A stretch of 20,765 nt of DNA, from the IMG/VR virus record IMGVR_UViG_3300028612_001679, positions 1 to 20,765 of that record; one strand, given 5' to 3'. Positions 1-19,507 of this stretch are shown piece by piece. The translations under genes and the position numbers were made by a program. The notes beneath the pieces were generated by a model, which was not told the origin of the DNA, searched no databases, and saw only the letters and a list, made by a program, of their open reading frames with translations. The stretch is from a virus. Numbering within the stretch: position 1 is the first letter of the stretch; each line of letters opens with the position of its first letter.

Positions 1-120
1 TACGCTACACGGAGTGCGATTGAAGCAGCAGTTTATGCGATAATCACACAAGGCATTGAAGATAATCTGTGGGACTATGAACCACAGCAGGAGGTGTCTG
101 ATGCAAGCACAACTAATTAA
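1..120 (+). CDS. csgG: CsgG-like curli secretion channel, C-terminal end (partial)
   Basis: Only the last 39 codons are in the window; frame 1 is open from base 1 to the TAA at 118-120. The residues SAIEAAVYAIITQGIEDNLW followed by D line up with the C-terminal helix of E. coli CsgG (SAIETGVIFLINDGIDRGLW followed by D), which I recall from the family. CsgG forms the outer-membrane pore that exports curli subunits. The stop lies 20 bases inside the next gene, a curlin-repeat protein, which strongly supports the call by context. The tail after the LWD is shorter than in E. coli. Almost all of the protein, including the lipoprotein signal and the barrel, is outside the window, so whether the gene is intact cannot be judged. 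Confidence 0.8.
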   Translation, partial: YATRSAIEAAVYAIITQGIEDNLWDYEPQQEVSDASTTN

Positions 121-817
121 ATATTCTCTAGTTTACCTCGTTTTTCTGTATTCGTTGGCTTATACGGTATCCGCTTCTGGAGCTAATAATTCTATATACA
201 TTACTCAGAGTGGTGGGTCGTCGGCCCTGACAATGAATTTAGACCAGATCGGAAACTCAAACGTAATAGGAACAAGTAACGCAAGAGTATCCTTAACAGG
301 AACTAGCATGACGATTGATATTGATCAAATTGGAGACTCAAATATCATTGCGGCCACAATCGCTCAAGGGAACAGTAGTTCCTTTACTCTGAGAAGTACC
401 GGGGACTCCAATACTCAAACGATTACAACTGGAGGGACCGGGGATACTCAGGGAAGTGATTTTGACTTTGCCGCTGTCGGAGACTCAAATGTGTTGACAT
501 ACACAGCGGGAGCAGCAGCGACAGCCACATCCGGAAACACCGACATCGTTATTACCGGTACGTCTAACAATCTCAATTTGGTCACTGAGGTAGTCGGTGC
601 AACCAATAACTGGGACGTAGACGGTGATTCCAACGATATTGACACTCTACAAACTGGGAACGCAAATCATTCCATCACGGCAGATATCACGGGCAATACA
701 AACAACATTGATATAGATCAAACCAATGTAAGTGGCAGCACCTCCGGCATAGTCGATATTATTGCCATTACGAGCGGCGGAATTATAGACATCGACCAAT
801 GTTCAAGTGGTTGCTGA
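101..817 (+). CDS. secreted curlin-repeat (CsgA/CsgB-like) amyloid protein 1
   Basis: Start chosen at ATG 101 because AGGAGG at 89-94 sits six bases upstream; in-frame ATGs at 56 and 77 lack this and would put extra residues before the signal peptide. The 238-residue product begins with a hydrophobic signal peptide (cleavage probably near residue 24, after TVSA). The rest is low-complexity, rich in N, T, S, G, D and I, with about ten units built around G-D/N/T-S/A/T-N, such as LDQIGNSNVIG, IDQIGDSNIIA and VDGDSNDID, the strand-turn-strand pattern of curlin repeats. The Gln and Asn ladder is clear in the first units and at the end (DIDQ) and weaker in the middle, so the fibre core may be divergent. 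It ends in a short Cys-x3-Cys motif. It overlaps the csgG-like gene upstream and the fecR-like gene downstream, so it is very likely exported by that CsgG. Confidence 0.82.
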   Translation: MQAQLIKYSLVYLVFLYSLAYTVSASGANNSIYITQSGGSSALTMNLDQIGNSNVIGTSNARVSLTGTSMTIDIDQIGDSNIIAATIAQGNSSSFTLRSTGDSNTQTITTGGTGDTQGSDFDFAAVGDSNVLTYTAGAAATATSGNTDIVITGTSNNLNLVTEVVGATNNWDVDGDSNDIDTLQTGNANHSITADITGNTNNIDIDQTNVSGSTSGIVDIIAITSGGIIDIDQCSSGC

Positions 818-1881
818 TATTTCTGCCGCTTGTAGCGCAGGCACAAATTGGCTCTATCTCAGAGCTCCGTGGCATTGGTGAAGTTCTACGCCAAGGTTCT
901 GATGATTCTTTAGAGGCTGCATTACAACTAGGTATTGCCAGTATGGATAATGTACGTACTGGCAATGGTCGTTTAGCTATTCAATTTCTTGACAATAGTG
1001 TAGTACGACTAACCGAGCGTTCTAGTGTTGTAATAGACGAATACATTTTTGATCCAGATCCCTCTCAGTCTCGCCTTGCTCTTAATATAGCCTCTGGAAC
1101 TGCCCGGTTTTTGACGGGTGCGCTAGGCCGTATTAATCGTGATCGGATCAGCATAACGACGCCGGTGGCAACGATAGCGATTCGTGGGACGGAGTTCACG
1201 ATAACAGTTGATGAGATAGGTCGTAGTCTAGTTATTCTTCTGCCTGATGAGGATGGGAATTCTAGCGGTGAGATTGTAGTTACTTCTATGGCTGGCGAGG
1301 TTGTAATGAACCAACCGTTTCAAGCCACTATGGTGAGTGTATCGGAAACCCCACCAACTCCCCCTGTTATATTACAAAATATGACCCTTGGATTTATAAA
1401 TAACCTACTGATCGTGAACCCGCCTGATGAAATACAAGAGGCAGTTGATGAACAGGCCAGCAGTCCATCTAACATTTTGGACATTGATCTTTTGGAGGAA
1501 ACTGAGGACGAGAATGAGCTGGATAAAGATGAGTTGCAGGATGAGATTGGGAGGCTCGATATAGATCTTTTGAATGTCGATTTCTTGACCGATCTGCTTG
1601 CGATTATAGAGGTGTCGGCCACTAAGAAAGATGCCAGAGTATCTGAGCTTGATGGGGTTAAGATTGAAGGAATCCTCGCTGGTTTCGATCAGCAGAATCA
1701 GACCTACACGTTCGTCGAGGGAGAGGTACTGACCATCTTCAGAAGCGTTGAGAATACCTTTGATCTCGAGCTTGATAAGAACAGTGCTTACAATATATCA
1801 GTGCTGACTGCTGGAAAGGCTCTGGATATCACGATTAACGGAGGAGGTGAGAATGCCATCTATATTAACCAATCTCCGTAA
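799..1881 (+). CDS. periplasmic FecR-domain protein with curlin-like C-terminal tail
   Basis: A 360-residue protein with a short signal peptide (residues 1-15, ending AQA). Residues about 18-175 form a FecR domain; the core reads ISITTPVATIAIRGTEF at 117-133, typical of FecR. Residues about 210-265 are rich in Asp, Glu and Leu and look like a linker. The last residues (NAIYINQSP) resemble a curlin half-repeat and are close to NSIYITQSG in the upstream curlin protein. FecR domains act in the periplasm as signal receivers or scaffolds, and in bacteria similar proteins often sit beside CHASE2 cyclase genes, as here. The start overlaps the previous gene by 19 bases and has only a weak ribosome binding site, so translation is probably coupled. 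This is not a classical FecR: no cytoplasmic anti-sigma part is present and no sigma factor is nearby. Confidence 0.82.
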   Translation: MFKWLLIFLPLVAQAQIGSISELRGIGEVLRQGSDDSLEAALQLGIASMDNVRTGNGRLAIQFLDNSVVRLTERSSVVIDEYIFDPDPSQSRLALNIASGTARFLTGALGRINRDRISITTPVATIAIRGTEFTITVDEIGRSLVILLPDEDGNSSGEIVVTSMAGEVVMNQPFQATMVSVSETPPTPPVILQNMTLGFINNLLIVNPPDEIQEAVDEQASSPSNILDIDLLEETEDENELDKDELQDEIGRLDIDLLNVDFLTDLLAIIEVSATKKDARVSELDGVKIEGILAGFDQQNQTYTFVEGEVLTIFRSVENTFDLELDKNSAYNISVLTAGKALDITINGGGENAIYINQSP

Positions 1882-2716
1882 AAATGGCCTCCCCAGAAGC
1901 TCTGTAAGGCGACTTCTCTTAGTAGGCAAGGCCTTGGTATACCCTATTTTGGGGGTATTTTTGAATATTTCCATTAGTTGGGCTGCAGACAACTCTGTCG
2001 AGATTGATCTAAAAGGTAATAGCAATGTCTATATTGATCAGATTGGATCGGGGAATGTGTCTCGTGTTTGGTGTGGTCTAAGTAACGGAACCTATGACAC
2101 TCACACTTGTTCCAGCGCCACCATTCGGCTGACTCAGACAGGCGATGATAATCTTGCAAAAGCCTATTCACAGTATACGAATCATCAATCAAATCAATAT
2201 ACGATTACTCAGAATGGATCTTCAAATGTCGGTTACATAGACGCTGACGAGAACGATAACGAAATGACCATCACCCAAACTGGTGATGACAACTACGGTG
2301 AAATCTATATGAGTGGAGATGATAACGTATATACAATTAGCCAGGTGGGCGATCACTACGCTAAATTCTATGCGTTTGGAAGTGACTCAACATGGACAGC
2401 TACTCAATCAGGATCGGGCAATCACAATGCCTATATCAAGAGTTGCTCAAATTGTAACAATAACGATGCCACGATCACTCAATCTGGCTCTGGAAATAAA
2501 GACGGGGATATTGAATTCCGCAACAACCCGTCTGACAACTCAACGGTCAATCTTACGCAATCAGGTGACGGCGCACACGTTGGCAATATTAGAGTGGAAC
2601 AGGGTAATTACACTGTCAACGCAACTCAAACGGGAACGACGGTCAAGAACTATACAGTAGTGTTGGATTGCACCTCGAGCTGTAATAAAACGATTACTGT
2701 TAATCAGTTTGATTAA
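1853..2716 (+). CDS. secreted curlin-repeat (CsgA/CsgB-like) amyloid protein 2
   Basis: Start chosen at ATG 1853: AGGAGG at 1842-1847 is five bases upstream, while the in-frame GTG at 1847 overlaps that site. The 287-residue product has a basic N-terminus of about 22 residues, then a hydrophobic stretch ending ISWA (signal peptide about residues 1-44, long). The mature part has about nine regular curlin units of the form T-Q-x-G-x-x-N (IDQIGSGN, LTQTGDDN, ITQNGSSN, ITQTGDDN, ATQSGSGN, ITQSGSGN and others). This is a closer match to the canonical curlin pattern than protein 1. Several Cys pairs (for example SCSNC and CTSSC) could form disulfides. One of the two curlin proteins may nucleate and the other polymerise, as CsgB and CsgA do, but the sequence does not say which. 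Its stop codon overlaps the cyclase start as TAATG. Confidence 0.85.
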   Translation: MPSILTNLRKNGLPRSSVRRLLLVGKALVYPILGVFLNISISWAADNSVEIDLKGNSNVYIDQIGSGNVSRVWCGLSNGTYDTHTCSSATIRLTQTGDDNLAKAYSQYTNHQSNQYTITQNGSSNVGYIDADENDNEMTITQTGDDNYGEIYMSGDDNVYTISQVGDHYAKFYAFGSDSTWTATQSGSGNHNAYIKSCSNCNNNDATITQSGSGNKDGDIEFRNNPSDNSTVNLTQSGDGAHVGNIRVEQGNYTVNATQTGTTVKNYTVVLDCTSSCNKTITVNQFD

Positions 2717-4491
2717 TGAAAATTGGTACAAAAATAGGGTTGATTACAACAGCCCTTTTTACTCTTCCTCTTCTATTAAACTGGTCAGCTTTAGAGATCC
2801 TTCGTCTCAAAACCTTTGATGCTTTTATTACACAACCTACCCCTTCAGGGCACTTTGTAATACTTGATATTACTGAGGAAGATATAGCTCGTGAGGGAGG
2901 TTGGCCTTTTCCCAGGCATACGTTGGCTTCCCTTCAGGACGAACTTATAGCACAGGGGGCTCTGGGAGTTGGATGGGTAATATTGTTTCCTCAGCCTGAT
3001 CGCTTTGGTGGAGATGAAGCTTTTGCTACAAGTCTTAGCCAGGGCATAAATGTATTAGCAATGTCTGAGTATTCTAATGGTCAATATCCAGAAGTGGATA
3101 GAACCGTTATTCTTGGAGAGGATCCTCTGTATTACACTTCTGCTCCGGGATTCCTTGTAAATGTAGAGCAACTTACTGAATATGCTTTACAAGGAGCGGT
3201 CTCAGCTCCTACGGATGTAGACAATCTTATACGGCAGATACCTCTTATTTCTAGGGTTCCTGATGGTTGGATTGCTTCATTTGCAACTCAAGTATTAAAG
3301 GCCCTTACAGTTACAATCAGTGGCGGAGAAGGAAGTTATCAAATTCGTACAAATAAAGACGGCATCGAAAGTATTAGAATTCCAGCTCTAGGAATAATTC
3401 CTACAGATAGGTTTGGACGGAAGTGGATCTCTTGGGTAGATACTCCCACTACGTCGTATCAAGATCCACAAGTAGAGGGTAAATTTGTCTTCATAGGTAC
3501 AAGCGCTGCAGGTGTAATGCCTCAATTAGCAACACCCGTTGGGCTATTAAATCCACATTATATTCAGGCCGCTTTGGCTGAAAGTCTTTTAATTGCAGAT
3601 AGTCCAAGTATTCCAGGTAATCGTTTGTTATATGAGCTTGGACTTCTTTTATTAGTCTGTACAATTACTATAGCATCTCTGCAGAAGTGTAATGTAACAT
3701 GGTCAGCTGTAACTGTAGGGGGTATGTTACTTGGACTTTATGGTACGGGTAGATATCTTATTGAACAAAATCAATTAGTTGATGTTACTTGGCCTATTAT
3801 TTGTTTGCTATTATTATCTGGAGAGCAGTTCTGGTTTAACTTCCGAGAGCAATATCTTCTGCGTCAACAGATTAAGAAACAGTTTGAACATTATCTGGAT
3901 CCTAGACAGGTTAAGCGTTTACAAGATAATCCTGCATTACTAAATCTGGGAGGTGAGCTCCGTAACTGTACGTACATATTCACTGACTTACGAGGATTCA
4001 CTGCTTTGTCTGAACGAGTGAGCCCTGAAAAAGTTACTGAGATTATGAATAAGACCTTATCTATTCAAGTTGAAGTATTTCAACGCTACGGAGGAATGAT
4101 TGATAAATTTATTGGGGACGCTTGTTTTGCAATTATGGGGAGTCCTTTAGATTTACCAGATCATCCTACTAAGGCAGTTCAAGCTGCTATAGAAGTTCAA
4201 GAACGTATAGAAAAATTAAATGAAAGTATGGAAGAAGATATTGTTATTGGTATAGGGATACAAACAGGTCCGGCTGTTGTAGGAAACATGGGCTCAGATA
4301 CGCGATTCGATTTTAGCGCTATCGGAAATGCCGTCAATGAGGCAGCACGCTATGAATCAGCCACAAAGGAAGTGGGAGTGAATATTTTGATAGGGGAGGA
4401 AACGGCAAATAAATGTCGTATAGATTTAAAATATGTAAAAGATATAATAGTTAAAGGTAAAGAAAAACCTTTAAGAGTTTATACTGTTTAA
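2716..4491 (+). CDS. CHASE2-domain class III adenylate/guanylate cyclase
   Basis: A 591-residue membrane cyclase. There is one membrane helix at about residues 7-24, a large extracytoplasmic CHASE2 sensor domain (about 30-300, with typical VILDITEEDI and REGGWPFPR segments), three more helices at about 304-370, and a cytoplasmic class III cyclase domain from about 412. Metal-binding Asp424 (FTDLRGFT) and Asp468 (KFIGDA), purine-binding Lys464 and Ser534, and transition-state Asn541 and Arg545 are all present, so it should be active. Lys with Ser/Thr at the purine sites is the class IIIb adenylate cyclase type, so cAMP is the more likely product. The start overlaps the curlin stop by one base and has no ribosome binding site, implying coupled translation. 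The 3' part is visibly more AT-rich than the curlin genes and resembles the phage genes that follow. Confidence 0.92.
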   Translation: MKIGTKIGLITTALFTLPLLLNWSALEILRLKTFDAFITQPTPSGHFVILDITEEDIAREGGWPFPRHTLASLQDELIAQGALGVGWVILFPQPDRFGGDEAFATSLSQGINVLAMSEYSNGQYPEVDRTVILGEDPLYYTSAPGFLVNVEQLTEYALQGAVSAPTDVDNLIRQIPLISRVPDGWIASFATQVLKALTVTISGGEGSYQIRTNKDGIESIRIPALGIIPTDRFGRKWISWVDTPTTSYQDPQVEGKFVFIGTSAAGVMPQLATPVGLLNPHYIQAALAESLLIADSPSIPGNRLLYELGLLLLVCTITIASLQKCNVTWSAVTVGGMLLGLYGTGRYLIEQNQLVDVTWPIICLLLLSGEQFWFNFREQYLLRQQIKKQFEHYLDPRQVKRLQDNPALLNLGGELRNCTYIFTDLRGFTALSERVSPEKVTEIMNKTLSIQVEVFQRYGGMIDKFIGDACFAIMGSPLDLPDHPTKAVQAAIEVQERIEKLNESMEEDIVIGIGIQTGPAVVGNMGSDTRFDFSAIGNAVNEAARYESATKEVGVNILIGEETANKCRIDLKYVKDIIVKGKEKPLRVYTV

Positions 4492-5125: not shown

Positions 5126-5536
5126 TCAAGTACTTATACTTATCCCTTTTAGGCAATATTGCTCTAAATTGACTATAAGCGTAGTGATTGGAATTGCACT
5201 ATTTAGAAAAGTCCTTTTTGTATAGTGATTAATTGAATCAAAATCTACAGTCATAATAGCTTTATCTTCACAGCCTGCTATTACAAAAACTGGTATTTTA
5301 AAATTGTGTTGAGTTTCTAACCAGTTTTTTTGTTGGGGGCTAAGATTAAATTTAAGCTTAGATGTTTCTCTAGCGGGTAGTACTGGTCTGTACTTATATT
5401 CTACAAAACACCAGGCTTCTGGACCGGCATAGTACACATCAGGAACACCTCCATGGTAGGGATCGTTAATTTTCCATTTATAAATAAATGGATCCAGGGC
5501 CCGATGAATTTTTGTAATGAAAGCTTTTTCATTCAC
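5126..5536 (-). CDS. VRR-NUC-like nuclease
   Basis: A 136-residue protein if started at GTG 5536, giving MNEKAFITKIHRAL, which fits the usual N-terminus of this phage family. The open frame continues upstream to a TTG at 5614, but that adds 26 residues encoded in the structured RNA region. Core motifs are GGVPDVYYAG, then WCFVEYKY (the ExK of the nuclease fold) and LSPQQKNWLE (conserved Gln), as in VRR-NUC/Holliday-junction-resolvase-like enzymes. It probably processes branched or broken DNA during phage replication or recombination. There is no good ribosome binding site directly before the GTG; the best match, AGGGAGG at 5577-5583, is about 40 bases upstream, beyond the strand of a long stem. 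It is the last gene of the minus-strand module. Confidence 0.75.
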   Translation of the reverse strand: MNEKAFITKIHRALDPFIYKWKINDPYHGGVPDVYYAGPEAWCFVEYKYRPVLPARETSKLKFNLSPQQKNWLETQHNFKIPVFVIAGCEDKAIMTVDFDSINHYTKRTFLNSAIPITTLIVNLEQYCLKGISIST

Positions 5537-5556
5537 TTTCTGAAAATAACATATTT

Positions 5557-5845
5557 TTAATGAGATAGCTGCCTTACCTCCCTTTGCTGTTATCCATGGA
5601 TTCAGCAAAGACAACCAAACCTTACGTGTCTAAGTCGTGCGTTCCCAAGCCGATATTTTTATGCTTCCACCGCACCTCCATGTAGTGCCCCATTACTACG
5701 GGTAGGTATCCCGTAGTAAGTACGTTAGGCACGAGTACGGTTACTTCACAAGTATCACACTGGCCTCGTTTGCCTCTTTAAGTTAATGCTTCCTAAAAGG
5801 AAATACTAACAGCGCCGTCGCACCCTCAGGCAGCTATCTCATTAA
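5557..5845. repeat. perfect 18-bp inverted repeat bounding the RNA domain
   Basis: Positions 5557-5574 and 5828-5845 are exact reverse complements of 18 bases, separated by 253 bases. There is no obvious target-site duplication outside the arms, which argues against a simple MITE insertion. As RNA the arms would form the closing stem of the domain described above. Confidence 0.9.
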
Positions 5846-5957
5846 GAATCGGTGGACAACTTTGCTGGGAACTCAGTAGCAAAGTCATCCACCTAGGTTC
5901 TATTCCTTATATAACTTAGAAATAGAACCTTTGCTATCTATGAAACTTGCGAGTTTC
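5557..5957 (-). ncRNA. candidate large structured RNA (unknown class)
   Basis: This gene-free stretch contains, in minus-strand order: a hairpin at 5957-5942; a 10-bp stem (5930-5921 with 5904-5895) extendable to 13 with a U-G pair; a 16-bp stem at 5893-5851 continuous only on the minus strand thanks to two G-U pairs; and a domain closed by a perfect 18-bp stem (TTAATGAGATAGCTGCCT at 5845-5828 with its complement at 5574-5557). Inside the domain are a hairpin at 5810-5782 with G-U pairs, a perfect 10-bp hairpin at 5719-5693, and a perfect 8-bp hairpin at 5610-5582 whose loop holds a 10-base palindrome. Wobble pairs repeatedly favour the minus strand, the direction of the flanking genes. I do not recognise it as a group I or II intron, RNase P RNA, tmRNA or 6S RNA. 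A mobile DNA element or replication origin is the main alternative. Confidence 0.7.
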
Positions 5958-5972
5958 CGTAACATATAAAAG

Positions 5973-6647
5973 TTATGAAACAGTCTCATAGATACGCTTG
6001 GCGACTTCATAGTCTTTATCCAGAACCCAACCTTGTTTCTGGACAGAAAGATTATGAAACTTTTGCCCGGAACGATTAGCAGTAGGTACAGAAGATACCT
6101 TCCAAAGAGAAGAAAATCTATCTCCACTTAGTTGTTGGATCTGTGTATTCCACTCACGAGACACTCTTAACTTGGATGAAGCAAAATCCATAAGGAATGG
6201 AGTTACTTCAAGTGTTCCAGTACTTGGATCTTTTCGTAAGAGTAGATGAGTCTGAGTTTGAATAATCTCATAGTCATCTTCTGAGCCATCTAAAGCTTTT
6301 ACTGCTTCTTTAGCTTCAGCCATTGAGTTGTTACCACTGGATCCAATACCTCCACCTTTTTCACGTTTTCGCCAAATAACGAAATCTTCGGTGAAATGTA
6401 TGTTGATAACATAGATTTCCTGTCCGTAGTTTTCGTTTGTCACCGTGTTTAACAAATGCCCTGGGCGAGAACCCTCGATGTAAGCATCGTGGTTTTCATC
6501 TACTTCGCTACTCATTTGCTGAAGGAGTTTGACTCTGGGAGTTTGAAGATGTTCTCCTGTAACATTTTCATTACCTAGGCCGGCAGCCTTCTCTACGTGA
6601 GCAGGTAGTTTAGTAGAAACCAAAACTACTTCTGTTGATTGAACCAT
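5973..6647 (-). CDS. conserved phage replication-module protein, unknown function
   Basis: A 224-residue soluble protein. Segments such as LPAHVEKAAGLGNENV, HLQTPRVKLLQQMSSEVD and FASSKLRVSREWNTQI are familiar to me from hypothetical proteins in the replication modules of tailed phages. Its size, single-domain look and place among DNA polymerase, helicase and nuclease genes make a single-stranded DNA-binding role plausible, but no diagnostic motif proves it. No signal peptide or membrane helix is visible. The ribosome binding site is a modest GGAAAG before ATG 6647. Downstream lies the structured RNA region, so the RNA could be cut from this transcript. Confidence 0.6.
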   Translation of the reverse strand: MVQSTEVVLVSTKLPAHVEKAAGLGNENVTGEHLQTPRVKLLQQMSSEVDENHDAYIEGSRPGHLLNTVTNENYGQEIYVINIHFTEDFVIWRKREKGGGIGSSGNNSMAEAKEAVKALDGSEDDYEIIQTQTHLLLRKDPSTGTLEVTPFLMDFASSKLRVSREWNTQIQQLSGDRFSSLWKVSSVPTANRSGQKFHNLSVQKQGWVLDKDYEVAKRIYETVS

Positions 6648-7090: not shown

Positions 7091-8448
7091 TAAGCGGCCT
7101 CCTGACTATATAATTTAGTCAATATATGTAAAAGATTTTCCATTCTTCCTAACTTACCATTTAATTTATCGTAAACTTTCGTTTCCCAAGTATCCTTGGC
7201 GGCAATAAGAATAGTTTCAGTTTTCTTATTTTGTCCTGCTCTATGGATACGTCTATTAAATTGCTGGAAATGTTCAGCATTATAAGTAGGAGAACACCAT
7301 ATACAGGTAGTAGCTTTAGTAAGTGTAAGACCATGGCTTGCAGATTGAGGGTGTGCAAAGAGAACTTGCACCTGACCTGCTTGAAATCGTTGTACAATAC
7401 CTGCACGTTTCTTAGGAGGAACATCTCCGTCTATAACTTCATAAGTTATTTTTTGAGCTTTAGCTAATTTAATTAAAGCATCTCGTTCATGTTTCCAGTT
7501 AAAAGCAACTAGACTATGTTTTCGTACTTTAATTAAATCTATAATTAAGTCATATCTATTTTGATGAAAATAAGTAACTTTACCTTCTTCATCATAAACA
7601 CCACCTGATACAAGTTGTAATAATTTTTTAACTCTAGCTCCTGCGTTTACTGCATTAATAGTTCCTTGTTGTGTATACAGACAGGACTGAGTAGCTAGAA
7701 TTTCATACAAGTTTCTAATCTCTTTAGTGAGAGTTGTATAAACAGTACGAGTAATATTGTCAGGAAGATCAATACAGTCTTCTAATGCATGTCGTATTGT
7801 TATATCACTTAGTAATTGACCTACAGTTTCTTCAATTCCAGGTTTATCTGTCCATTCATTTACAAACCCATTAAATCTGGGAGTACAGACTTGATGTCTA
7901 AAGGCAAAGAAACGTATGCCTAATCGTTTACCGTCATCTACACAAAGAGTAGGATGCCAAAGATCAAGAATAGTATTGGTATTAGGAGTACCAGACATAA
8001 AAATACGACGGTCAAAATTCGAAACAATAGATTTAAGATTCTTTGATCTTCGTGCAGTTCTATTCTTAAAGGCTGTAAATTCATCTACTACTAAAATATT
8101 AAACTTATTCAGAAACTGCTTATTCTTAACAAGGAAATTGACAGCTTCAAAATTTGTAATAACCATGTCAAGTGAATCATCATTAAAAATTTTCTCACGA
8201 TTTTTTGCATAGGCAATATCATATTTAATAGATGGCTGGAACTTAGCTATATCATCTGCCCAGGCTGCTTCAAGTATAGATAAAGGAGCTAAGACTAGAG
8301 TTTTAGCTTTAAGGGCAACATGAGCATCTAATACAGCTCGAGTCTTCCCTGTACCTGGATCTGAAGTAACCAGGCAACGAGGGTGTCTGATAATAAAATC
8401 AGTTGTTTCTATTTGATGGGAATAGAGAGGAAGGACGGAAACATTCAT
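7090..8448 (-). CDS. SNF2-like superfamily 2 DNA helicase/translocase
   Basis: A 452-residue two-domain helicase. Walker A is DPGTGKT (residues 30-36), the DExx box VDEF is at 121-124, motif III SGTP is at 152-155, and motif VI QFNRRIHRAGQ is at 396-406 with its arginine fingers. HRxGQ is characteristic of the SNF2 branch. It lacks accessory domains, as phage versions usually do, and should act as an ATP-driven DNA translocase in replication, recombination or fork repair. ATG 8448 is preceded by ACAGGAG six bases upstream; this leader also resembles a CsrA site (see findings). The downstream coiled-coil gene is coupled to it. Confidence 0.9.
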   Translation of the reverse strand: MNVSVLPLYSHQIETTDFIIRHPRCLVTSDPGTGKTRAVLDAHVALKAKTLVLAPLSILEAAWADDIAKFQPSIKYDIAYAKNREKIFNDDSLDMVITNFEAVNFLVKNKQFLNKFNILVVDEFTAFKNRTARRSKNLKSIVSNFDRRIFMSGTPNTNTILDLWHPTLCVDDGKRLGIRFFAFRHQVCTPRFNGFVNEWTDKPGIEETVGQLLSDITIRHALEDCIDLPDNITRTVYTTLTKEIRNLYEILATQSCLYTQQGTINAVNAGARVKKLLQLVSGGVYDEEGKVTYFHQNRYDLIIDLIKVRKHSLVAFNWKHERDALIKLAKAQKITYEVIDGDVPPKKRAGIVQRFQAGQVQVLFAHPQSASHGLTLTKATTCIWCSPTYNAEHFQQFNRRIHRAGQNKKTETILIAAKDTWETKVYDKLNGKLGRMENLLHILTKLYSQEAA

Positions 8449-11783: not shown

Positions 11784-11957
11784 TTATCCCTTATAGACTT
11801 CTTCTCGGTCTATTTTTAAGTCTGACTCCGCCTCAAAAGCCAATTTTACTTGTTTAGATCCTACTCCTATTACAACTATTTTGCACAAAATTTCGCCTGT
11901 CTTTTTATATAGAATAATAGCTTCTTCCTTCTTACGTGTAAGTATTAAAGTGCCCAT
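11784..11957 (-). CDS. csrA: CsrA/RsmA-like translational regulator (57 residues)
   Basis: A 57-residue product. It begins MGTLILTRKKEEAI, matching the CsrA N-terminus (MLILTRRxGE), and continues with VVIGVGSKQVKLAFEA and IDREEVYKG, matching the conserved GxQVRIGxxAP and HREEIY parts. Arg8 and Arg51 correspond to the two RNA-contacting arginines of CsrA (R6 and R44), both kept. It stops right after the last strand, so the C-terminal helix is nearly absent. The length is otherwise typical of a CsrA monomer, which works as a swapped dimer binding GGA in RNA hairpin loops. The ATG overlaps the polymerase stop as TAATG, so it is made from the replication transcript by coupling. Confidence 0.9.
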   Translation of the reverse strand: MGTLILTRKKEEAIILYKKTGEILCKIVVIGVGSKQVKLAFEAESDLKIDREEVYKG

Positions 11958-16022: not shown

Positions 16023-16186
16023 GTTTTACTCCATAAAAAATAGATACCAACAGAAATAAGAAATAGAATTGAAGTTATAGTTATTAGATGATGTAGAGTG
16101 GATGAAATACCTAATGCAATAAGAATTGCACTAGCACCTGCTAAAACTGAAGCTTTTAGTTTAGTTAATTTTAATGACTTGCCCAT
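16019..16186 (-). CDS. small two-helix membrane protein (55 residues)
   Basis: A 55-residue product with a basic N-terminus (MGKSLKLTKLKAS) and two hydrophobic segments at about residues 13-28 and 34-52. AGGAGG sits six bases before ATG 16186, inside the 3' end of the VWA gene, which it overlaps by 26 bases. The topology would suit a holin-like or envelope protein, but nothing proves it. Confidence 0.6.
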   Translation of the reverse strand: MGKSLKLTKLKASVLAGASAILIALGISSTLHHLITITSILFLISVGIYFLWSKT

Positions 16187-17303
16187 AAGGAGCCTCCTCT
16201 CTAGAAGTTGTTACCCAAAGAACTGGATAAAGGGGGGCTGGCCCAAAATCAGTAGCTTCTAGATCCGTTAAATAAATTAAAGCTACTACATTAGGATATT
16301 TTTCATTTACATATTTAATAGCTGGACTAAAGGCTGTACCTCCGCGTCCTTCATATTTAACTTTAAGAGGTAAATTTTCTCTTGTATAAGTTGTATCGTT
16401 GTGAACTTTAGAATCACATTGAATGAAGTGAATTAACTCAGGATTAAGATCATGAAGAATGGCAGATGTTTCACCTGTAAATTGTTCTAATTCGGTCTCA
16501 CTAACTGATCCAGAAGAGTCAGTAACAATAGCTATCTCTTCTAAACATGGAGTGTGAAGTGAAGGTAGATATAGTCCAGAAGATATGAGTCTTCGATTAG
16601 GACGTATCCAAGTGAAATCAGATTTGTTATTAGCTCTTAAGAAACGAGCTAATGTCATTCTCCAATCTACTTTAGGGGCTAAAGCCTTTTCTATAAGCGA
16701 TTGCATGTGACCAGGCAATTTACCTATAGATTTAGCTGCTTCAGCTGCTTGGTGTATGGCTACTTCAAGGTCAGCTGCATATTTACCAACTGCTTGGCCA
16801 TCGAGTAAATTTGGATGGTCTTCGACTCCGCCACAGCCTCCAGGATCATCAGTAATTTCTCCATCTTTTCCTGTACACAGCCATACTTCTGTGGGGGTTG
16901 GATTTTGTCCTATATCTTTAGGTAGAAGTTCATAGACTTGTTCAGTGGACATATCATCATATTGAGAATCTAGTAATTCTGTATGAGGAAGAACAAGTCC
17001 ACTTTTTACTAAAGCGCTGTTAATAACAAAATCTCCAGCAATGTTCCAACGTTTTGGGTCACGGCCTTCTCGTCTAAGCATGTGAAGTAGAGCTACATGC
17101 ATTACTTCATGTGCAAGTAAGCCGGCACGTTCAGGAGATTTAAGTTTAAGGAACCATTTAGGGTTATAACGAATATTAACCCCATTGGTACAGGCAGTTT
17201 TTATAGAATCATCTGCTATAGGAGTTAGGCGTAATGCTAGAGCACCAAAGAACGGATGATCTAGCAATAACCTAGAAATTGCTTTTCTATACTCCTCTAA
17301 CAT
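16161..17303 (-). CDS. VWA-domain protein with HExxH metallopeptidase-like domain
   Basis: A 380-residue protein of the DUF2201 type. The N-terminal half has HEVMH (residues 65-69), a zinc-protease-like motif, with RWNIAGDFVIN after it. The C-terminal half is a von Willebrand factor A domain with the MIDAS DSSGS at 262-266, GRGGTAF near 320 and a YLTDLE motif. It is encoded with a MoxR AAA+ ATPase two genes upstream; MoxR and VWA proteins act in pairs as metal-loading or remodelling chaperones in bacteria. Target here is unknown. The ATG is three bases after the upstream stop. Confidence 0.85.
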   Translation of the reverse strand: MLEEYRKAISRLLLDHPFFGALALRLTPIADDSIKTACTNGVNIRYNPKWFLKLKSPERAGLLAHEVMHVALLHMLRREGRDPKRWNIAGDFVINSALVKSGLVLPHTELLDSQYDDMSTEQVYELLPKDIGQNPTPTEVWLCTGKDGEITDDPGGCGGVEDHPNLLDGQAVGKYAADLEVAIHQAAEAAKSIGKLPGHMQSLIEKALAPKVDWRMTLARFLRANNKSDFTWIRPNRRLISSGLYLPSLHTPCLEEIAIVTDSSGSVSETELEQFTGETSAILHDLNPELIHFIQCDSKVHNDTTYTRENLPLKVKYEGRGGTAFSPAIKYVNEKYPNVVALIYLTDLEATDFGPAPLYPVLWVTTSREEAPYGQVIKIN

Positions 17304-17305
17304 AG

Positions 17306-18043
17306 TTAATCATCTCCTAATAAAGAAGCTGTGAGAATATCCTCGGTCAATTTGGTACTATTATCCATATTGACTGCTTCTTCTTTTTGAGCTTCTTGCT
17401 TACGTTTTCGTTCTTGTTTCTTATGTACTTTAGCTACGATTTCAGATTCAACTAACTTATCTAAAGCAGGATAAGCACGTAAAGCTTGGTTAAGAGTAGT
17501 AAATTGATCTAAAAACTTAGAAAATTTATTAACATTTACTTGATTTCTAGCCTTTTGTTTTGAATTCGATTCCTGAACTAATAACAACTCCTCTAGTTCT
17601 GGGATTTCTTCCCGTTTCATAGCAAGAGTAACTGTTTCTGCTCCACCATATCTTTGCGGGATAGAAGGAAAAGAACGTTCTGCAGAGAGAGGGAATCTAA
17701 TAAGATGTTCATGGGTTTTTGATGTAATCACCCAATCTTCATCATCTGCATTGAACATACCAGCTTCATCTTTTTTACGGTCACAACTATAACTAGTATA
17801 AGAAGTTTTTACTTTTAGCTCATTATCCTTTACAAAAAAAGTATCTACTTCAATTAAATCCTTAAAGCAATCGGTTAAAGCGATTTTAATCTTATTTATT
17901 CTTACTCCTATAATAGCGTTATAAATAGCATCTGCTAGAGCAGGGTTAAATTCTTTTTCTGAATGTAATTTTTCAAGAACTTTAGTCTTATATGCATACC
18001 TAAGCTCATGTATTAATTTTCGAGACATTCTTACCGTTGACAT
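17306..18043 (-). CDS. phage protein between the MoxR and VWA genes, possibly Nmad5-like
   Basis: A 245-residue protein, mixed alpha/beta, with a Lys/Arg/Glu-rich stretch at about residues 200-225. The FTTLNQALRAYPALDKLV region near 185-200 resembles the C-terminal part of phage Nmad5 proteins (nucleotide-modification-associated domain 5), as I recall them, but no catalytic motif is visible. GAGGAG is six bases before ATG 18043. Sitting between MoxR and VWA genes, it could be their client or adaptor. Both ideas are inferences. Confidence 0.55.
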   Translation of the reverse strand: MSTVRMSRKLIHELRYAYKTKVLEKLHSEKEFNPALADAIYNAIIGVRINKIKIALTDCFKDLIEVDTFFVKDNELKVKTSYTSYSCDRKKDEAGMFNADDEDWVITSKTHEHLIRFPLSAERSFPSIPQRYGGAETVTLAMKREEIPELEELLLVQESNSKQKARNQVNVNKFSKFLDQFTTLNQALRAYPALDKLVESEIVAKVHKKQERKRKQEAQKEEAVNMDNSTKLTEDILTASLLGDD

Positions 18044-18054
18044 ACATTGCTCCT

Positions 18055-19071
18055 CTATAAAATGTCATGGGAAGAATCTGTAATCCATTTACGGACTGCA
18101 GGATGTGAAATCATCATTTTGTCATATTGAATGGCTAACTTCATACCTATTACTTGGTACTCGGTATCCATTTTCTTTATGACTTTTACAATGTTATCCA
18201 TTTTCTTTTCGCTAGATTGAGAAGCCAGAGCCCCTGCAAGAGCAATGTTTACAGCCACATTATCCTGAGGCTTGTAAGTTTGCGGATTAGCGATTAATGC
18301 ATCGACATCAGGCAAATCTTTATGGATTACCCTGAATGCGATGTACTCTCCAGCGGCTCCGTCACCAACCAAGGCTGAGACGCCATAATAGAGAGTTTCC
18401 TCATTGACATTAGCTAACTTTAATCGTTTATCTACGAAAGCCCAGCTACGAGGAGTCGGAAATGCATAGCTTTCGGGATTAAAGTTGTATAGCAAACCAG
18501 GCTTAAATCTCAAAAATGATATTAAGGACTGATCAATGCCGTTTCGGATAGCCCAGCTGCACCAATCATCCAGATTGGGCTCGAGCTCATAGTGCGCTAA
18601 CCTGTTTCTCACAGGGGATGGCATTTGGTATACAGCTGCAAAATCAGTTAATCTGTTACCTGCAGCTATGATTGACCACCCTTCTGGTAGTTCATAATCT
18701 CCTACTTTACGGGTGAGCAATAATTGAAGAAATGCGTTTTGGGTTGCGGGAGGAGCAGTAGGTAATTCATCAATAAAGAATAAACCTTCTGCACCATCTC
18801 TTTCCACAATAGGAAAGACATCAGGTACGGCCCATCGAGTAAATCGTTTACCTATGGCTTTCTGTAACATTACATAAGGTATTCCTCTAACATCTACAGG
18901 ATCAAAAAGATTAGCCCTGAAATCTAGAAGTTTCATATTAAGCTTTTGAGTTACTTCAAGCGGGATATCAGATTTACCTATGCCTGGGCCCCCCCATATC
19001 ATGGTGTTGAGTCCAGCTTTCATATTATCTAAGATTTCTGATAATAAATGCTTAGGTCTAATAGAATGCAT
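18055..19071 (-). CDS. MoxR-family AAA+ ATPase
   Basis: A 338-residue ATPase from ATG 19071, chosen because GAGGAGC precedes it at good spacing; the open frame extends 32 codons further without another ribosome binding site. Motifs are Walker A GGPGIGKS (27-34), Walker B FFIDEL (Asp101, Glu102), sensor 1 AAGNR (Asn139) and the PVRNR arginine pair at 155/157. The ATPase part matches MoxR proteins that remodel targets together with VWA partners, here the gene at 16161. The C-terminal part is helical. Confidence 0.85.
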   Translation of the reverse strand: MHSIRPKHLLSEILDNMKAGLNTMIWGGPGIGKSDIPLEVTQKLNMKLLDFRANLFDPVDVRGIPYVMLQKAIGKRFTRWAVPDVFPIVERDGAEGLFFIDELPTAPPATQNAFLQLLLTRKVGDYELPEGWSIIAAGNRLTDFAAVYQMPSPVRNRLAHYELEPNLDDWCSWAIRNGIDQSLISFLRFKPGLLYNFNPESYAFPTPRSWAFVDKRLKLANVNEETLYYGVSALVGDGAAGEYIAFRVIHKDLPDVDALIANPQTYKPQDNVAVNIALAGALASQSSEKKMDNIVKVIKKMDTEYQVIGMKLAIQYDKMMISHPAVRKWITDSSHDIL

Positions 19072-19156
19072 AACAGCTCCTCGATTTAGCAATTTGTATT
19101 TATTACGTAAAATTAACCCCATAGTTATAAATTTAAAAGGGCAAAAACCCAACTGG

Positions 19157-19507
19157 CTAGTAAACATCTCCTGACTTTATTTCTTTAATTAGCAGGAGTT
19201 TATCTAGCAGAACAAAAATGTCATCTCCACTGAGGTTGCTCCACTTAGAGCCAACGTCCAGTCCGTCAGGCACACGGCCCAATAGCCTGGCACATTCTTT
19301 GAAGGCTTCTATGTGCTTTGGTTTATAAGGGGCATAAGGAGAGAATTCCAGGTAGTGAACTTCTCCATACTGATCAGTAAGCGTATGCCATCGTTTTGAA
19401 TTTTCAATCTCACCATCGGCACCGTACTCAGGATCATCCCAAGTCTCGTACTTTGTAAGTATAAGTGGCTCAGTGGACTGTTTTCTCTTCCTGTTCGGCA
19501 CCGTCAT
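19157..19507 (-). CDS. small phage protein, unknown function
   Basis: A 116-residue protein if started at ATG 19507, which follows GAGGGA; the frame is open to 19561 and ATG 19522 is another choice. It is basic at the N-terminus (NRKRKQ), then Trp/Tyr-rich (YLEFSPYAPYKPK), then helical (DDIFVLLDKLLLI). I do not recognise it. It overlaps the previous gene by about 38 bases. Confidence 0.5.
   Translation of the reverse strand: MTVPNRKRKQSTEPLILTKYETWDDPEYGADGEIENSKRWHTLTDQYGEVHYLEFSPYAPYKPKHIEAFKECARLLGRVPDGLDVGSKWSNLSGDDIFVLLDKLLLIKEIKSGDVY

Follow-up and report, generated by a model that had tools for sequence, protein, structure and literature searches.

To our knowledge, few large structured phage RNAs have been described, and the roles of GOLLD and ROOL have yet to be established. 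GOLLD and ROOL are highly structured RNAs of phages and prophages, of unknown function, that have no dedicated protein; GOLLD is often longer than 800 nt, and both are often located near tRNA islands (PMC12286853). The manA, wcaG and PhotoRC-II motifs are structured RNAs of marine phages and cyanophages, of which manA and wcaG are apparent regulators of particular downstream genes (PMC2864571). The RNA cassette described here, from an uncultured and probably marine phage, resembles GOLLD and ROOL in being phage-borne, highly structured and without a dedicated protein; in contrast to them, it is 230-300 nt long, has no Rfam match, and lies in a window (the whole 20.8-kb stretch of an IMG/VR virus record that was analysed) containing no tRNA. 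Unlike manA and wcaG, the cassette has no single downstream gene, as its flanking genes differ between its two copies, and it again has no Rfam counterpart. The cassette very probably represents a genuine RNA type that has not been described so far.

In the window, a run of minus-strand genes (13762 to 5126) encodes DNA polymerase A, CsrA, a primase/helicase-like protein, an exonuclease and a SNF2 helicase, and ends with gp33-like and gp34-like (Pam3) proteins followed by a small GVPD...EYK protein, the nuclease of Table 1, which had no match in Pfam or NCBIfam. The CsrA homologue is found within this replication operon at 11784-11957 (PF02599, E = 2e-11). Elsewhere, the phage carries genes for an ATPase (phrog_1297) and a DUF2201 VWA-like metallopeptidase (16161-19167), and positions 56-4491 encode two curlin-repeat proteins, a FecR-domain protein and a CHASE2-adenylate/guanylate cyclase, followed by an HNH gene. 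The set at 56-4491 recurs at the same position in many related phages, indicating a phage-borne module and not host flank.

The stretch between the gp34 stop codon (5973) and the GTG of the nuclease gene (5536-5534) is free of any open frame of note, as the preliminary description had stated, and coding content is ruled out by breaks in six of the six frames. Its minus-strand fold has a free energy of -161.3 kcal/mol (z = -8.5), which none of 100 shuffles equalled, and a scan of the whole window identifies 5537-5972 as its most structured part, with the segment from 5851 being extreme on both strands. The perfect 18-bp closing stem reported earlier is present (5557-5574/5828-5845) and, with its extension, reaches 22 nt at 95%; this helix, P1, is the sole long near-perfect inverted repeat within 20.8 kb. 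The several hairpins of 8-16 bp were also located, as helices of 13, 16, 9 and 8 bp (Table 1). Further, five of the window's six CTTTGCT/AGCAAAG heptamers fall within 5582-5935 (three AGCAAAG and two CUUUGCU on the RNA strand), and this clustering would permit alternative pairings among hairpin 2, hairpin D and the 5′ flank.

Related phages were collected via their nuclease, gp34 and SNF2 proteins. In nearly all of these relatives, the gap between gp34 and the nuclease measures 60-305 nt or holds other genes, without the RNA; the only other copy between these two genes is on an identical 4.1-kb contig (L004). Scans of IMG/VR and GTDB for exact 16-18-mers returned chance matches except for the identical L004 and L123, and blastn against phages, plasmids and E. 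coli gave nothing convincing, with a 27-nt stretch in a Halioglobus plasmid judged to be a chance match. Profile searches likewise yielded no copy beyond the identical contig at that stage. A search of the whole records of related phages found one diverged homologue at 7148-7379 of IMGVR_UViG_3300003702_000015 (G027), the contig of L084. The match consists of two blocks with 78-79% identity (E = 2.7e-19 and 2.8e-9), and the reciprocal search with the G027 RNA finds the window (E = 1.3e-19); the G027 cassette is about 232 nt long, compared to 297 nt in the window. A 16-mer from the conserved core, picked once the homologue was known, retrieved the G027 copy and chance matches in a viral scan. 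A covariance model (R1), built from the window and G027 sequences, scores the G027 copy at E = 1.1e-36, G027 being part of its training set, and yielded no additional copy among the remaining related records. Overall, the cassette occurs in 2 of approximately 130 related contigs, many of which are fragments. A search of 4227 Rfam families (including GOLLD, ROOL, OLE, introns, ribozymes, RNase P and tmRNA) had been suggested as a check, and neither copy matched a family at the gathering score or gave anything credible at E up to 10.

The homologue also enabled the covariation check named in the preliminary description, which revealed compensatory changes in two helices. In the hand alignment of the window and G027, covering 50 pairs, P1, hairpin B and hairpin D are kept. 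At seven of these pairs, both partners differ and pairing is retained (compensatory double changes); five belong to the outer half of P1 and two to hairpin D. Another seven pairs survive a one-sided change, and five are broken in one copy; two of the broken pairs are adjacent and create a tandem G-A/A-G mismatch in the G027 hairpin D. As there are only two distinct sequences, this covariation is counted on one pair. Paired cells amount to 95%, compared to at most 54% in slid-partner controls. Moreover, paired columns carry substitutions (28 of 100) no less often than unpaired ones (14 of 72), and the long single-stranded blocks are nearly invariant between both RNAs. When G027 was folded without the window, the same P1 and hairpins B and D were predicted with p of at least 0.94 except at the tandem mismatch; in particular, 9 of the 11 stem pairs in hairpin D had p of 0.97-1.0, the remaining two being the mismatch. 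The compensation, the invariant blocks, the shared operon orientation and the absence of an Rfam match support the original proposal of a large structured minus-strand RNA of unknown class.

The structured RNA does lie within 5537-5972, the extent first assigned to it, and the borders of the conserved cassette are narrower (Table 1). In the proposed architecture, the long P1 would close a multi-branched domain consisting of hairpin B, an arm of variable length, a near-invariant single-stranded core and hairpin D. The longest conserved blocks (CGGCUUGGGAACGCACGA-N5-ACACGUAAGG, UAAAGAGGC and GAAUCC/GGAUAAC) are single-stranded in the models or located at hairpin tips. Hairpin A and the GGCC/GGCU closure of the peripheral arm are less certain than the other elements; neither is supported in G027, and the closure is predicted in the window only. 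A GUGCG/CGCAC pairing, complementary and invariant in both copies, was rejected because forcing it costs 4.5-4.9 kcal/mol.

Table 1. Features of the cassette and its surroundings, in minus-strand 5′ to 3′ order; positions are those of the window.
Feature	Position	Strand	Evidence or remark
Upstream gene, Pam3 gp34-like protein (PF23977)	5973..6647	-	E = 1.9e-53
Hairpin 1 (helix hp1), 13 bp, outside the cassette	5895..5930 (5895-5907/5918-5930)	-	Absent from G027
Hairpin 2 (helix hp2), 16 bp, two G-U, outside the cassette	5851..5893 (5851-5866/5878-5893)	-	At the place of the relatives' gp34 3′ hairpin
RNA cassette, P1 to P1, 297 nt	5553..5849	-	G027 homologue; borders are P1 in both; empty site in G014
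P1, 5′ arm (RNA orientation)	5828..5849	-	Five compensatory double changes vs G027
Hairpin A (small, invariant GGUGCGACGGC), uncertain pairing	5811..5824	-	p only 0.25 in G027
Hairpin B	5782..5810	-	Independent folding in both RNAs
Conserved single-stranded UAAAGAGGC	5772..5780	-	Comparison with G027
Peripheral arm of variable length, possibly GGCC/GGCU-closed	5652..5766	-	115 nt here, ~70 nt in G027
Helix, 9 bp	5694-5702/5710-5718	-	
Near-invariant core CGGCUUGGGAACGCACGA-N5-ACACGUAAGG	5620..5652	-	Alignment with G027
Hairpin D, conserved GAAUCC/GGAUAAC tip	5579..5613	-	Two compensatory double changes
Helix, 8 bp	5582-5589/5603-5610	-	
P1, 3′ arm	5553..5574	-	The same five double changes as in the 5′ arm
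Extended -10 element TATGTTATTTT, 6 nt ahead of the nuclease GTG	5543..5553	-	Motif in many relatives
Downstream gene, small protein, GVPD...EYK, PD-(D/E)XK-like nuclease motif	5126..5536	-	Sequence motif

The strand assignment had initially been based on G-U pairs thought to be compatible only with minus-strand RNA, an argument that failed a shuffle control within the window. The plus-strand fold is equally exceptional (z = -8.2). The minus-strand energy advantage (-22.2) is matched by the shuffles (-20.0 ± 5.6, with 38 of 120 as large) and is therefore explained by composition alone. The G-U fraction (0.129) is lower than that of the shuffles (0.159), and the one mismatch of P1 would be a G-U pair on the plus strand only. 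The strand-specific evidence comes solely from the G027 homologue: the hand structure, applied to both sequences, has 12 G-U cells versus 1 A-C cell, and each copy lies on the coding strand of its own operon.

In G027, the RNA is flanked by a p199-like gene and a small zinc-finger gene and runs in the operon's direction. The same two genes are ~30 nt apart without the RNA in G014, whose p199 is 68% identical, making this an empty site; the genes behind p199 differ in the window. A P1-bounded unit at two non-homologous sites, together with an empty site, indicates a discrete 230-290-nt RNA cassette. The placement in the replication operon upstream of the nuclease gene, as originally described, is correct with regard to position; the cassette is not tied to that gene, because its homologue sits at another site.

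A hairpin of 14-22 bp stands a few nt past the gp34 stop codon in approximately 60 unique relatives; it occurs in nearly all of the relatives L005-L230, commonly in the form GUACAUG-N-UGCGACA-loop-UGUCGCA-N-CAUGUAC. In a set of 17, this hairpin covaries, and its G-U pairs fall on the transcript strand; since only some examples have a U-run, it does not serve as a terminator in every case. The cassette shares its intergenic site and strand with the gp34 3′ hairpin, which in comparison is one short hairpin of unrelated sequence. In the window, the position of the gp34 hairpin is filled by hairpins 1 and 2, which are followed by the cassette and finally by the nuclease promoter. Many relatives have TATGnTAnnCT followed by 6-7 nt and GTG, and the window has TATGTTATTTT-CAGAAA-GTG; this motif reads as an extended -10 and suggests that the nuclease is served by a separate, near-leaderless promoter located below the cassette. 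As the nuclease -10 element is downstream of the cassette, a nuclease message started from this promoter is unlikely to include the cassette. A riboswitch or nuclease leader was rejected, given this -10 element and the other genes beside the G027 copy. An intrinsic terminator was rejected as well, as no U-run follows hairpin 1, hairpin 2 or P1 and there is only one weak 5-bp site (5824-5811).

The same gp34-nuclease site holds other sequences in other relatives. L050 (4787-5000) and L067 (4786-5000) have a different structured insert of ~130 nt with three long complementary stretches (GUCCCU.../...AGGGAC, GCUUGGUG/CACACCAAGC and GGUAGUAAGUG/CRCUUACUACC) that interlock in a pseudoknot- or switch-like manner. 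In L015, L038, L053 and L084, the gap contains spanin-like genes (an inner membrane protein and a lipoprotein), and the lipoprotein gene overlaps the nuclease start; the window shares 16 bases (TCAGAAAGTGAATGAA) with L084 in this gap.

On balance, the locus is probably a discrete structured non-coding RNA cassette of an undescribed family that likely stands alone after cleavage from the operon transcript. The main rival reads the cassette as an element acting in cis on the operon mRNA: an expanded gp34 hairpin that would form a 3′ end or an insulator and would stabilise or terminate the message upstream of it. The many relatives with a covarying hairpin on the transcript strand after the gp34 stop, the nuclease promoter directly below the cassette, and the different insert of L050 and L067 at the same place are all consistent with such an element. 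However, the G027 homologue does not lie near gp34, the place of the gp34 hairpin is taken by hairpins 1 and 2 and not by the cassette, no stem has a U-run behind it, and a structure that only stabilises would not usually have a near-invariant core; overall, the cis-acting reading is unlikely, though more likely than a DNA element or a ribozyme. A small MITE-like mobile DNA element, with the P1 arms as its terminal inverted repeats and the RNA structure as incidental, would account for a unit that is bounded by an inverted repeat, is present or absent as a whole and is found at two different sites in related phages. It is improbable, however, because it is the outer, terminal half of the repeat that has diverged with compensation and the inner half that is conserved, whereas recognition of the ends by a transposase would require the opposite; the pattern is more readily explained by an RNA helix than by the ends of a transposon. 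Conservation extends to the internal core and to hairpin D, the latter with compensation, there is no target-site duplication at the P1 borders of either copy, and no searched record contains multiple copies. The 8-nt direct repeat TAACATAT was rejected as a target duplication, its frequency being within chance.

The size of 230-300 nt, the conserved single-stranded core, the GUGCG that opens the conserved part and the mobility between sites would also suit a ribozyme or the remnant of a self-splicing intron. This reading is very improbable, as no Rfam intron or ribozyme model matched either copy at E up to 10, both sites are intergenic with no gene interrupted, and no intron-encoded protein was found. 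Other candidates were rejected. A retron msr-msd lacks a reverse transcriptase among the Pfam-scanned window proteins, and no RT-like ORF was noted beside the G027 copy, where the ORFs were viewed (the Pfam scan covered the window only). A CsrA decoy RNA would suit the phage's CsrA homologue and the higher GGA density of this stretch (23 versus 13 per kb); however, the 436 nt contain just 10 such sites, and several lie within stems. A replication origin, raised at the outset as a refuting outcome, does not fit, as no GC-skew minimum coincides with the stretch and the skew tracks gene direction.

As a discrete RNA, the cassette would be inserted between phage genes in the orientation of the surrounding operon and transcribed with it as part of a polycistronic transcript. 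Its release may occur by cleavage around P1, with RNase III acting plausibly at P1 and hairpin 2, and the released cassette would then most likely function independently, with a target or partner that belongs to it, and not as the leader of the next gene. With regard to searching, the whole-record search of related phages found a homologue that blind k-mer scans and blastn against public collections had missed. The family's pattern of presence and absence between related phages is clean and, with its length of 230-300 nt, defined architecture and invariant core, its members are small enough to be probed, expressed and solved. We tentatively suggest, as a possibility somewhat short of probable, that they form a new family of self-contained phage RNAs, trans-acting during infection, whose cassettes move between intergenic sites, and whose near-invariant single-stranded core may bind a host or phage partner or be catalytic.
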